From Flavobacteriales bacterium (GTDB lineage Bacteria; Bacteroidota; Bacteroidia; Flavobacteriales_H; JAHEZO01), in the NCBI GenBank assembly GCA_023250995.1, contig JAHEZO010000010.1, positions 1 through 35,102 on the forward strand: 35,102 nucleotides of DNA. Direction: 5' to 3'. Numbering within the stretch: the stretch's first letter is position 1; each line of letters opens with the position of its first letter. The notes under the pieces are model-generated. The model did not search any database, had not been told where the DNA came from, and saw nothing but the letters and a program-made list of their open reading frames with translations. Positions 14,937-24,303 of this stretch are shown piece by piece. The position numbers and the translations under genes were made by a program.

Positions 14937-16070
14937 TTAAATTTTCATATAAACCCTTTTGAACCATAGTTTAAAAAGGGGATCCATAAAATCAATTTTG
15001 CCTCCTGTAAAATCAACAATTTCTTTTTCCTCCAAAGCATTTTTTATTCTCAACACGTTGGCCGAGGTTCCGAGCCGGTATTCCCTGATTGTTTCATAAG
15101 AACTGAATTGCGAAACATTGTTTGTTAGTGCTTTTAGAAAATTTATCTGTGTGGTTGTTAAATTATCGGTTTCGCGCTGAAACAAAATGTTGGAGTGATT
15201 AAAAAGCAATTCAATGGCTTCATTGAGAATTGGCAGGGTGCAATTTTTGGGAGTGAGATCCCATGCTGTGTATGCCAGTTGTTGAACAAAATAGGGATGG
15301 TTTTCCATGGTTGAAGCGATGGATGCTGCAACATCTTCTCCAATATATTTTTTTGTTTTTTTGAAATTTTTAACAATAAAATCAATGAGAATCCTGTTTT
15401 CAATTTTATCAAGAAAAAGCACATCTCCGAATTTATAAAAAGGCATGGATTTGTTTTCGAATAATTCCATCATCAAGTGCCTTTTGCTCCCGTAAAGGCA
15501 ATAAGTGGCTTTCTGGTGGTGTTGCCAACAGGCCCTTAGCCTTTTCTGAAAGGCAAGGGGGTGGTCGAAAAAACTGATGTTTTGAAATTCATCCAGGCAT
15601 ATTACAATATTGATTTTTTTTGAATGGCTAATAAACTCAGGTAAATTTAATACCTCCTCCGGAGATTTGCTTATTTCCTTCCAGTCGAAACTTAAAGAGA
15701 AATCATTCATGGGATCTATGCTGAAATTAAATTTCGGAATCACCCTTTTAAAAAATTTTTTGCTGTTGTTAAGCCAGTCCTCTGTTTTTGTAGAAGTAGA
15801 TTTAAGCAGTTCTCTTGCCAGGGTTTCATAAAATTCCTGCTCTGTGCGGATGTTAAATAAATCAACAAAACAAAAGTGTGTTTTTGATTTTTTTGCTGAA
15901 ACCTTTTTTGCCACCATTTTCATCAGCGAAGATTTTCCCCACCTTCGGGGTGAAATAAGGATGGTGTTAATGTGAGAATTTAAATTCCGGATAATTCTCT
16001 TTTGTTCCGCTTCCCGGTTTGTAAAGCTTCGTCCTATTGCTATTTTGCCGAAAGTGAAAGGATTAACCAT
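14937..16070 (-). CDS. ATPase_2-type P-loop ATPase with winged-helix tail
   Basis: The 377-residue product has an N-terminal GRSFTNREAE element, Walker A at 41-48 (PRRWGKSS) and Walker B near 155-161 (IVICLDE, Asp160-Glu161). A sensor-like YCLYGSKRHLM and a helical lid follow, then a C-terminal winged-helix-like region (TTTQINFLKALT to LGTSANVLRIKNALEEKEIV). PRRWGKS, LDE and the C-terminal IDFMDPLFKLWF are typical of the archaeal-type ATPase_2 family of STAND-like AAA+ proteins. These are common in Bacteroidota and their cellular role is mostly unknown. Three 15-base direct repeats lie 30-70 bases upstream of its start. Confidence 0.85.
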   Translation of the reverse strand: MVNPFTFGKIAIGRSFTNREAEQKRIIRNLNSHINTILISPRRWGKSSLMKMVAKKVSAKKSKTHFCFVDLFNIRTEQEFYETLARELLKSTSTKTEDWLNNSKKFFKRVIPKFNFSIDPMNDFSLSFDWKEISKSPEEVLNLPEFISHSKKINIVICLDEFQNISFFDHPLAFQKRLRACWQHHQKATYCLYGSKRHLMMELFENKSMPFYKFGDVLFLDKIENRILIDFIVKNFKKTKKYIGEDVAASIASTMENHPYFVQQLAYTAWDLTPKNCTLPILNEAIELLFNHSNILFQRETDNLTTTQINFLKALTNNVSQFSSYETIREYRLGTSANVLRIKNALEEKEIVDFTGGKIDFMDPLFKLWFKRVYMKI

Positions 16071-16100
16071 AGAAAAGTTTTTTGCAAATATATAAAATTA

Positions 16101-16142
16101 AACTTACAAATATGTAACTTACAAACATGTAACTTACAAATT
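16101..16142. repeat. Three 15-bp direct repeats upstream of the ATPase gene
   Basis: AACTTACAAATATGT, AACTTACAAACATGT and AACTTACAAATTGAA follow without spacing. They end 31 bases upstream of the ATPase ATG (minus strand). Iterated sites so near a start may bind a regulator, possibly the winged-helix protein itself, but nothing shows this directly. Confidence 0.7.
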
Positions 16143-16281
16143 GAACATGGATATTATCAGGAATCTATTAAAAAAATATAACGCAAACCTGATTGCAATT
16201 AACTGAAGTTACGCAAAAACATTAATTTCCAAAATACAAATATCAAAATACAAATAATATTCAATATCAAAATTTCAATTA

Positions 16282-16735
16282 TCAAACCGTTTGCCGACTT
16301 GATTTTTCGATTATTGTCGAAAAAATATTCTTTATTTGAATTGCCTCATCTTGTAAATGTTTCCCTTCATGTTCAAATTCAAGTGCATTTTCCTTATAAA
16401 TTATCCGAAGAAAATATGCACTTTCCTTAGCTTCTTTTCGACCTATTTTTACTCTCTTCATAAAATCCTTTTTACTCAGCCCTTCACTTACTTCGATATA
16501 ATTAGATTCAACAGAACCTGGCGATCTGATAACCTGCTTTCCAGCTTCAATATTATCGGTTGTTTTTTGAAATTTTTTAAAAAATAAACGAACATTCTTA
16601 GCAAAATGAAATGTCCTTTCTTATACATAGTACTACGTAGTTCAGGAAATATTTTTTCATTTGAGAATCATGTCGCCTATGCAATGAACGAAGTAGTAAG
16701 TCGAATGGCGGTTTAGAATTTTCTTTATTGGTCAT
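16282..16735 (-). pseudogene. Four-helix-bundle (23S rRNA intervening-sequence type) protein, disrupted
   Basis: From the ATG at 16735 the minus strand reads MTNKENSKPPFDL, then 76 foreign bases (16696-16621), then ERTFHFAKNVRLFF and onward in another frame. The rest is intact to the stop at 16282: KQVIRSPGSVESNYIE, then EGLSKKDFMKRVKIGRKEA, then KEAKESAYFLRII. This is the S23/IVP four-helix-bundle family, whose members start (F/Y)DLEERT. The 76 bases are not a multiple of three and bring in a stop, so no full protein is made. It is the only cargo of the surrounding TIR element. Confidence 0.78.
16621..16696. mobile_element. 76-bp insert with imperfect terminal inverted repeats
   Basis: It interrupts the four-helix-bundle gene between the DL and ERT codons. 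ACTACGTAGTTCA near its left end and TGAACGAAGTAGT at its right end are inverse to one another at 10 of 13 positions. No clear target duplication is seen. It may be a tiny MITE or a decayed palindromic unit nested in the larger element. Confidence 0.45.
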
Positions 16736-16970
16736 TGGAATTTTTTTGCAATTTGATTATTGTTATTTGTTATTTGAAATAGAGATGTGCGTAACATCAG
16801 TAATTAAGACATGTGGTTATAAATACCGGATAAGAAATTTGAAAATCGAAAATGAAAATTTTAAATGTTTTTTCTATATTTTTTCCCTTGGGTCTAGGAA
16901 ATTGAGGCATGACGCCAAATCTCACCATTTGCAAAAACGGATAAAAATTTATTCCATAATAATAAATGTT

Positions 16971-17012: not shown

Positions 17013-19856
17013 TTAATGTGCCTCGAGCCAATTCTGACCTGTGCCCATTTCTACTTCAATTGGAACTTCCATAGGGATGGCATTTTTCATTTTATCCCCA
17101 ATGATAATTTTTATTTCAGCCAGTTCCGTTTTATGTGCGTCAAAAACAAGCTCATCATGCACTTGAAGCAGCATTTCTGATTTCAATCTGCGTTGGGAGA
17201 ATTCCTTATAAATATTAATCATGGCAACTTTAATCATATCGGCCGCACTTCCCTGGATAGGTGCATTGATGGCATTTCGTTCTGCAAATCCCCTTACTGT
17301 GAAATTGGCTGAATTAATATCACGCAAATACCTTTTTCTTCCCAAAATGGTTTGCACATAACCTCGTTCGCGGGCAAAAAGAATGCTTTCGTCCATGTAG
17401 GCTTTTATCCGGGGATATTCAGCAAAGTAATTATCTATTATTTCTTTGGCTTCCTTGCGCGGGATTCCCAATCTCTGGGATAATCCGAATGCAGAAATCC
17501 CATAAATGATTCCGAAGTTTACCATTTTTGCGTTTCTCCTCATTTCGGAAGAAACTTGGGTAATTTCAGTTTTATAAACTTTAGCTGCAGTTGCAGCATG
17601 AATATCTTGTCCTTGCTTAAATGCTTCAATCATCCCCTTATCACCGCTCAGTTCGGCAATGATGCGCAACTCAATTTGCGAATAATCTGCAGAGAGTAGT
17701 ACAAAATCATCATTTCGGGGAACAAATGCCTTTCTGATTTCTTTACCTCTTGCAGTACGGATTGGAATATTTTGCAAATTCGGATTATCCGAACTTAACC
17801 GCCCGGTGGCAGCCACAATTTGATTAAAGGAGGTGTGAACCTTTCCGGTATCTGAATTTATCATCAGGGGCAGGGTGTCTACATAAGTATTTTTAAGTTT
17901 TTGAAGTTCGCGGTAATCTAAAATATTTTCAATAATGGGATGGGTTCCCAGCATTGAAGCCAGGATGTCTTCCCCGGTGGCATATTGGCCCGTTTTTGTT
18001 TTCTTTGGTTTTTCCACCACCTTTAATTTTTCAAAAAGAATTTCGCCCACCTGCTTTGGAGAATCTATATTGAATGTATTTCCGGCCATGGAATAAATTT
18101 TATCTCCCAATGAAAGAATATCTTTTGAGAGTTCCTCCGAAAGTTCTTTCAGCGCCAGTATGTTGAGTTTTATTCCCTGTGCTTCCATCGAAGAAAGAAC
18201 AGGAATAAGAGGAACTTCAACCTCTTCAAATAATTTTTTTACACCGGTTTTTTCCAAAAGGGGATCAAACACATTTTTTAATTGAAGGGTGACATCGGCA
18301 TCCTCGGCTGCATATTCGCAAATCTGTTCCAGTGGTACATCCCTCATTGATTTCTGATTTTTCCCTTTGGGGCCAATCAATGTGGTAATAGAAACCGGCT
18401 TGTAATTTAAATAGGTTTCCGAGAGCAAATCCATGCCATGACGCATATCCGGCTGAATAAGATAATGGGCCAGCATGGTATCAAAAAATTCCCCTTTTAA
18501 AGTAATCCCGTATTTTTTTAAAACGGAAAGGTCAAATTTAATGTTTTGACCGATTTTCCCAATCTGCTCATTTTCCAAAAGCGATTTGAATTTCGTTACA
18601 ATTCTTTGTGCTTCATCTTTGTCTTCAGGAACAGGAACATACCATGCTTCAAATGGTTTAACAGAAAACGACATCCCGACTAATTCTGCGGAAAGAGTAT
18701 CTAAACCCGTAGTTTCAGTATCGAAACAAATTAATACCTGACCTGATAAAAGTGAGGCAAGTTCATCTATTTTTTGTTCCGAATCTGCTAAGAAATAATT
18801 ATGGGGGATTGCACTTATTTCCTTAAAAGATTTTTTTTCCTCAGGGGTTTCAGTGTTGGATGGGATGAAATTTTCGGTTTTTTTTTCTTCGGTCTCCGGT
18901 GCATCGAACAGGCCCATTTGTCCGGTATTATTTTCATCAGCAACGGCCTTGTTGTTTTCTCCGGCTTTATTACCGGCCTCACCAAAAATTCTTTCTCCCA
19001 GCCTTCTGAATTCAAGGTCGGCAAAAATCTCCTTCAATAATTCCTTATGAGGCTCTCCGGTTTTGAAATAGTTCTCATCAAATTCAACCGGGGCATTGAG
19101 CAAAATGGTTGCAAGTTTTTTTGAAAGTATGGCCTTGTCGGTATTCTTTTCAATTTTTTCTTTCAGTGAACCCTTAATTTTATCTGTGTTTAACAAAATG
19201 TTTTCAATGCTCCCAAATTCTGAAATTAATTTTTTGGCTGTTTTTTCACCCACCCCCGGAACTCCGGGAATGTTGTCCACCGCATCTCCCATCAACCCCA
19301 AAATATCTATTACCTGAAGCGGATTTTGTATTTCGAACTTTTCACAAACCTCCTTAATACCCATTATTTCGGCATTATTTCCGAAACGGGCCGGTTTATA
19401 AATAAAAATGTTTTCCGAGACCAATTGTCCGAAATCCTTATCCGGTGTCATCATAAAAGTTGTAAAGCCTTCCTTTTCCGCTTTTTTGGCAAGAGTTCCT
19501 ATAATATCATCGGCCTCAAAGCCATCTGAGCTAATTACAGGAATATTAAAGGCTTCAATAATTTTAATAATATATGGAATTGCTTTGGAAATATCCTCCG
19601 GTGTTTCCTCTCTGTTCGCTTTGTAATCTGCAAAATCCGTATGCCGTTCGGTAGGAGCCCCGGTATCAAAAACCACCGCAATATGAGAGGGCTTTTCTTT
19701 TTCCAGAATTTCGAGCAGGGTATTGGTGAAGCCAAACATTGCCGAGGTATTTAATCCCTTGGAATTGATTCGGGGCGTTTTTATAAAAGCATAATAAGCC
19801 CTATAGATAAGCGCAAAGGCATCTAACAGGAAAAGTTTTTTTTCTGGTTGAGTCAT
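17013..19856 (-). CDS. polA: DNA polymerase I
   Basis: PolA fills gaps and removes RNA primers in replication and repair. The 947 residues hold an N-terminal 5'-3' exonuclease (LLDAFALIYRAYYAF at the start, FEADDIIGTLA near 110, GVPGVGEKTA near 198). A 3'-5' exonuclease domain has Asp379 and Glu381 in FDTETTGLD, so proofreading looks intact. The family A polymerase domain follows, with motif A around Asp724 (LSADYSQIELR), motif B RRNAKMVNFGIIYG and motif C LLQVHDELVFD. A Lys/Glu/Asn-rich linker of about 50 residues lies near 290-345. The start is the ATG at 19856, divergent from gapA. Confidence 0.98.
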   Translation of the reverse strand: MTQPEKKLFLLDAFALIYRAYYAFIKTPRINSKGLNTSAMFGFTNTLLEILEKEKPSHIAVVFDTGAPTERHTDFADYKANREETPEDISKAIPYIIKIIEAFNIPVISSDGFEADDIIGTLAKKAEKEGFTTFMMTPDKDFGQLVSENIFIYKPARFGNNAEIMGIKEVCEKFEIQNPLQVIDILGLMGDAVDNIPGVPGVGEKTAKKLISEFGSIENILLNTDKIKGSLKEKIEKNTDKAILSKKLATILLNAPVEFDENYFKTGEPHKELLKEIFADLEFRRLGERIFGEAGNKAGENNKAVADENNTGQMGLFDAPETEEKKTENFIPSNTETPEEKKSFKEISAIPHNYFLADSEQKIDELASLLSGQVLICFDTETTGLDTLSAELVGMSFSVKPFEAWYVPVPEDKDEAQRIVTKFKSLLENEQIGKIGQNIKFDLSVLKKYGITLKGEFFDTMLAHYLIQPDMRHGMDLLSETYLNYKPVSITTLIGPKGKNQKSMRDVPLEQICEYAAEDADVTLQLKNVFDPLLEKTGVKKLFEEVEVPLIPVLSSMEAQGIKLNILALKELSEELSKDILSLGDKIYSMAGNTFNIDSPKQVGEILFEKLKVVEKPKKTKTGQYATGEDILASMLGTHPIIENILDYRELQKLKNTYVDTLPLMINSDTGKVHTSFNQIVAATGRLSSDNPNLQNIPIRTARGKEIRKAFVPRNDDFVLLSADYSQIELRIIAELSGDKGMIEAFKQGQDIHAATAAKVYKTEITQVSSEMRRNAKMVNFGIIYGISAFGLSQRLGIPRKEAKEIIDNYFAEYPRIKAYMDESILFARERGYVQTILGRKRYLRDINSANFTVRGFAERNAINAPIQGSAADMIKVAMINIYKEFSQRRLKSEMLLQVHDELVFDAHKTELAEIKIIIGDKMKNAIPMEVPIEVEMGTGQNWLEAH

Positions 19857-24037: not shown

Positions 24038-24303
24038 TTATTAACTGAAGTTACGCAAAAAATAAATATTTACGCAAAGCCGCAAAGTTCGCAATTGGAA
24101 AAAAAAAGAAAACTTTTTAATAGTTCTCAATTTTTAAATAATTTGGATGTATACGGATTACCTTTTTAAGTACGCAAAGTCCCCCACAGTTTTACTGTGG
24201 GGTTGCTCTGCAAACTTTATCCTTTGCGGCCGTTGCGACTCTTCGTGTATTTTCTTTGCGTTCTCTGCGGTAAAAAATGTATTTGGCTAACATCAGTTAT
24301 TAA
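24038..24303. mobile_element. TIR/TSD-bounded element 2, no gene inside
   Basis: CTGAAGTTACGC at 24045-24056 and GGCTAACATCAG at 24285-24296 are imperfect inverted ends of a 252-bp element. It is flanked by a perfect 7-bp direct repeat TTATTAA (24038-24044 and 24297-24303). The left end matches element 1 (16203 onward) over about 17 bases. Inside are inverted cgcaaag-rich stretches (24072-24094 against about 24218-24275) and a perfect hairpin at 24182-24202 (CCCCACAGT, loop TTT, ACTGTGGGG). No open frame is present. It lies seven bases beyond the end of the nnrDE gene. Confidence 0.75.

Follow-up and report, generated by a model that had tools for sequence, protein, structure and literature searches.

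The window, a stretch of 35,102 nt, is contig C316 of a Flavobacteriales MAG (3.6 Mb in 341 contigs, 92% complete; hereafter the host genome). Between an AAA-ATPase gene (14937–16070, minus strand) and polA (17013–19856, minus strand), it carries a 600-bp element spanning 16202–16801, within which the S23/IVP gene alone covers 16282–16735 on the minus strand. Upstream of the AAA-ATPase gene, at 16094–16143, there are also three near-repeats spaced by 15 bp (AACTTACAAAYATGT).

An S23 pseudogene between IS701-type ends

The element is bounded by 14-bp inverted ends, for which the family consensus is ACTGA[A/T]GTTACGCA. The left terminal inverted repeat (TIR; 16202–16215, plus strand) reads ACTGAAGTTACGCA and is of the IS701 type, the same motif terminating IS701 elements of ~1.12 kb in two other Bacteroidia (G314 and G346); the right one (16788–16801, minus strand) reads ACTGATGTTACGCA. 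Immediately outside these repeats, AATTA at 16197–16201 is matched perfectly by AATTA at 16802–16806, giving a target site duplication (TSD) of 5 bp, the length that is the rule in this family. The preliminary description had proposed a near-perfect duplication of 7 bp; we reject this candidate because those bases form the outer half of the inverted ends.

Its view of S23 as the sole gene between the inverted ends, and a broken one, was borne out. No transposase gene is present inside the element, and the minus-strand S23 remnant matches PF05635 (23S_rRNA_IVP) over 16324–16626, with one in-frame stop and a score of 45 bits against a gathering cut-off of 33.8. The pseudogene opens with an ATG (16735–16733) and begins MTNKENSKPPFDL, followed by roughly 80–100 bp of extra sequence that an intact relative lacks; a frameshift and stops further disrupt the frame, leaving no intact S23/IVP ORF in this copy. 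In the orientation of S23, the downstream arm of the module (16226–16286) consists of quasi-repeats complementary to the upstream arm (16734–16780), which runs into the start codon; predicted folding likewise supports both arms. On each side, ~21–24 nt of IS701-type sequence is left outside this module.

The end family, its MITEs and the autonomous partner

With up to one mismatch allowed, the 3.6-Mb host genome contains 143 occurrences of the end motif, and none of a reversed-pattern control. A perfect 5-bp duplication flanks 25 of the 50 distinct paired elements found there, and matches at 3, 7, 8 or 9 bp flank none of the 50. The members fall into several interior classes, the largest being the S23 class with at least 45 members supported by TSDs, most of which are 227 bp in size. 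Alignment shows that the 227-bp MITEs retain the start and first codons of S23 as well as its last codons, with the middle missing (positions equivalent to window 16232–16334 are joined directly to those of 16708–16785, the segment 16335–16707 being deleted), and they are therefore internal deletions of an S23-bearing form. Other internal deletions gave intermediates of 540, 353, 327 and 276 bp, and the window copy is the longest and most complete family member in the host genome. The extra sequence near the 5′ end of S23 is common to all copies long enough to hold it, and none of the long copies has an intact gene; copying proceeded with the gene already damaged, and the S23 protein was therefore not needed in cis. 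Our confidence in the identity of the element, and in the origin of the MITEs by internal deletion from an S23-bearing element, is high.

At 24044–24297, the window holds another element of this end family, with TIRs ACTGAAGTTACGCA and ACTGATGTTAGCCA, the TSD TATTA and a CGCAAAG-type hairpin interior without S23; eight related sequences were clustered with it, the window element itself being counted twice among them. We do not claim the CGCAAAG- and CGCAGAG-type MITEs as S23 remnants, such arms occurring at no sampled S23 locus. Elsewhere, several element pairs lie exactly 5 bp apart (L031, 615–621; L066, 1727–1733; L068, 1859–1865; L139, 1890–1896; L127, 2161–2167) and look as though the target duplication of one element had served as the exact insertion site of the other. 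A 213-bp hairpin element with weak ends (L016, 2587–2799) has arms that match, at 93% over 45 bp, those of an S23 gene (L050) located at a separate place in the same genome.

The 14-bp ends were surveyed in 395 genomes of the class and proved numerous only in the host genome, G059, G346 and G373; G314 has three. Some end pairs in G314 and G346 lie ~1.12 kb apart and have identical 14-bp ends. The G314 element of this size encloses an ORF of 360 aa with a score of 295 bits against NCBIfam NF049921 (IS701_2; cut-off 250), which places its product in the IS701 family by the family model; the G346 ORF is 48% identical to it, part of one copy (L191) reading N, and two G346 copies bear perfect 5-bp TSDs, TACTT and TACTA. 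In their ends, TSD length and AT-rich target, these elements agree with the window family. They resemble the IS701 family (the NF049921 group) in the 14-bp ends, the AT-rich target, the short duplication and the single DDE transposase of the G314 and G346 copies. They depart from it in two respects: the autonomous form measures ~1.12 kb instead of 1.4–1.55 kb, and the duplication is 5 bp long, whereas canonical IS701 members generate 4-bp duplications (PMC2266710). The window element additionally differs from the family in lacking a transposase.

Searches for an IS701 transposase of this group gave no match at E≤1 in the host genome, and none was detected in the end-rich G059 and G373. Because no transposase was detected in the host genome, we infer, on the basis of the shared ends, that mobilization occurred in trans. 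The partner of the host genome may have been lost, may be unassembled, or may be too distant in sequence to detect; a transposase copy may be missing from a 92% complete MAG whose contigs tend to break at repeats. Six G059 contigs (C1, C14, C16, C35, C42 and C120) start or terminate within a 154-bp MITE that has IS701-type ends and the interior CCGCAGAGAACACAGAG, and the end family therefore fragments assemblies. Judged by the shared ends and duplication, there is good reason to regard an IS701-family transposase as the probable mobilizer of the window family.

The window element thus displays the defining features of a MITE, namely TIRs, a TSD of fixed length, multiple copies without a transposase gene, and ends common to an autonomous element, the latter residing in other genomes (G314 and G346) and not in the host genome. 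Bacterial IS-derived MITEs such as MITECca01, a MITE from IS982 in Cardinium (PMC9769881), are likewise short and multi-copy, with TIRs, TSDs, an internal deletion derivative and a transposase acting in trans. Unlike them, the window element derives its interior from a foreign S23 module rather than from a transposase gene, and the host genome yielded no autonomous partner for it.

Stand-alone S23 genes and their complementary arms

S23 genes are present in 48 of 60 relatives, with up to 23 per genome, and they extend far beyond these, as illustrated by 80 loci from many phyla that were chosen by similarity to the window protein. The structure 2RLD represents this S23 or ‘four helix bundle protein’ family (PF05635). 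The stand-alone genes share the family and the flanking-arm architecture with the window module, but, in contrast to the window copy, most are intact and lack IS701-type ends.

The 200-bp sequences before and after S23 genes are mutually complementary: when one flank is reverse-complemented and aligned locally to its partner, the score reaches at least 20 in 61% of 149 loci, compared to 0% of 289 shifted windows (mostly coding sequence), 0.7% when the flanks are shuffled and 15% when flanks of different loci are paired. Under the stricter control of dinucleotide-preserving shuffles, 77% of the loci, in the Bacteroidia and the cross-phylum sets alike, score above every one of their 30 shuffles. 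In predicted folds, the flanks are joined by a median of 34 pairs versus 8 in controls. The arm sequences vary by locus and are built of short degenerate repeats such as GTCGTAAGTTGTAAGTCGTAAG; the arm type found downstream of the window pseudogene also lies beside an intact, TIR-free S23 gene of G059 (L339). S23 is co-directional with both neighbours in 117 of 128 cases and opposed to both in none, a bias to which the operonic surroundings contribute, given that adjacent control pairs agree in 82 of 91. For clean pairs differing at the protein level, dN/dS ranges from 0.02 to 0.20, the ratio for L252/L269 being unusable on account of indel misalignment; by this measure, the S23 protein is kept by purifying selection.

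In the 23S rRNA intervening sequences (IVSs) of Leptospira and Coxiella, complementary sequences border the S23 ORF, and RNase III excises the insert (PMC4990558). The window module is similar in having the S23 ORF in a loop, with complementary borders forming a long stem, but it lies between protein genes and outside any 23S rRNA gene, wrapped in IS701-type ends, and its stand-alone relatives also differ from IVSs in being located between protein genes in operons. We searched for 23S rRNA motifs, using a motif set that had no positive control, and found no cluster of them beside 153 S23 loci and one weak 16-base match; an Rfam search detected no rRNA in 20 S23 loci. On these two grounds, we reject the idea that the loci are hidden rRNA IVSs. 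In the open-access papers searched, we came across no report of S23 enclosed by IS ends and none of stand-alone S23 genes flanked by complementary arms, an absence that is itself weak evidence.

Several comparisons bear on the movement of these modules. Two loci from Cloacimonadota and Armatimonadota MAGs (L252 and L269) are ~84% similar, and three from Desulfobacteraceae and Desulfobacterales MAGs (L261, L262 and L282) ~89% similar, in both cases over the ORF and arms only, with unrelated flanks. In G059, an S23 module (L165, contig C20) sits between nuoI and nuoJ, identified by the Pfam domains Fer4 and Oxidored_q3. The two genes are adjacent in six congeners (L349–L354), with 3–139 bp unmatched between them versus ~490 bp in G059. 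Three of these congeners (G016, G188 and G215) have clean empty sites, the G095 junction bears a hairpin of the same arm type as the G059 module without the gene, and the G158 and G127 junctions bear a different, CCTCCCC-type hairpin. The comparison shows gain or loss of an S23 module at this orthologous site, by whatever mechanism. Relatives of the nuoI–nuoJ module occur elsewhere on the same nuo contigs of two congeners (L363, G215:C97:11528-11949; L364, G095:C407:10533-10893). The ends of stand-alone modules revealed no convincing target duplication; apparent TSDs there are mostly palindromic continuations of the arms, and we do not claim them.

We lean towards the view that stand-alone S23 genes are widespread small mobile modules, in which the ORF occupies the loop of a long, imperfect hairpin built from short degenerate repeats and is sense-oriented between operon genes. 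Such modules would be to mRNA what intervening sequences are to 23S rRNA, cleanly gained and lost, able to leave gene-less hairpins behind and occasionally picked up by conventional transposons. Our confidence that S23 modules are, as a rule, mobile hairpin elements is moderate, drawn as it is from ~150 loci and one orthologous-site comparison. RNase III may cut the S23 module out of polycistronic transcripts, which would make its insertion nearly neutral.

Origin of the composite element and the spread of S23 modules

The preliminary description anticipated an intact relative of the window gene, and the expectation held in part: the S23 gene of L339 in G059 is intact (120 aa) and has a matching downstream arm at a gene junction, but it lacks IS701 ends, and all five long copies of the host genome are broken. 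The arms of the window copy are like those of stand-alone S23 genes, and its G059 relative is free of TIRs, which makes an S23 module between IS701-type ends the best reading of the window element. Very probably, then, the element is a non-autonomous, MITE-like IS701-family derivative whose S23 module, comprising the gene and both arms, is complete but inactivated. Against this count the failure to detect an IS701 transposase in the host genome, duplications of 5 bp where canonical IS701 makes 4, and the fact that no ‘empty’ MITE sharing these ends and devoid of the S23 module turned up. Under this explanation, an S23 module of the kind that is free in G059 would have become enclosed between IS701-type ends, and an IS701-family transposase recognizing these ends would have moved the composite in trans, cutting AT-rich targets (TTAATA/TATTA-like) and leaving a 5-bp duplication. 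Internal deletions would subsequently have removed most of the S23 gene, and the 227-bp version would have become the main MITE of the host genome. Both the mobilization in trans and the order of these events are inferred.

How the enclosure came about admits a variant of this explanation, to which we assign even chances: instead of being captured by IS ends, the S23 module may have jumped, by a mechanism of its own, into a short IS701-type MITE that was already there, the composite transposing thereafter as one unit. Elsewhere, S23 modules insert on their own as discrete units, and the strip of IS701-type sequence on either side of the window module is short, as this variant would have it. 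However, the elements collected include no S23-free MITE with the same sub-terminal sequence, and S23 modules usually lie between operon genes rather than in MITEs.

In either form, the explanation treats S23 as passive cargo. That the gene instead serves as a mobilizing or regulatory factor of the element, in a partnership of the RAYT/REPIN kind, would fit its being the sole ORF of the long form and the purifying selection on stand-alone S23 genes, yet it seems quite improbable: the ends and TSD belong to a DDE element of the IS701 family with its own transposase, several long copies exist in the host genome although every one of them is dead in S23, and MITEs without the S23 gene are abundant.

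The preliminary description went further and offered a mobile cassette with these ends as a route by which S23 genes have spread. As far as the window is concerned, S23 as the cargo of a non-autonomous element is well supported by the ends, the TSD, the deletion series and the autonomous match elsewhere. As the general vehicle of stand-alone S23 genes, IS701-type ends appear highly improbable. Apart from the window case itself, this idea could draw on G059 and G314, which hold many S23 genes as well as the end family. However, TTACGCA and TGCGTAA occur on both sides of a single locus, the window copy, out of 146 S23 loci with enough flank, and at none of the tested S23 loci of the end-bearing G059, G314, G346 and G373; moreover, at the orthologous site an S23 module is present or absent without such ends. 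Nearly all S23 genes elsewhere thus lack the TTACGCA ends, and we reject these as a general S23 feature. Finally, the sequence is AT-rich and hairpin-rich, but the notion that these are no more than ordinary hairpins between genes whose termini resemble each other by chance has practically nothing left to it in view of the 143 end motifs against none in the control, the perfect 5-bp duplications at half of the paired elements with none at the other lengths, and the identical ends on a coding IS.

The window element is a concrete example of how an S23 gene can turn into the cargo of a transposon and subsequently supply the material for a family of MITEs. The arms of stand-alone S23 genes, together with their gain and loss, point to a different and wider way of spreading than IS701-type ends. 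How S23/IVS elements spread has long been open and can now be tested, taking the ORF plus its complementary arms as the mobile unit and using the orthologous empty sites of one genus. If this holds true, many genes annotated as ‘four helix bundle protein’ would be small mobile elements living in mRNA.
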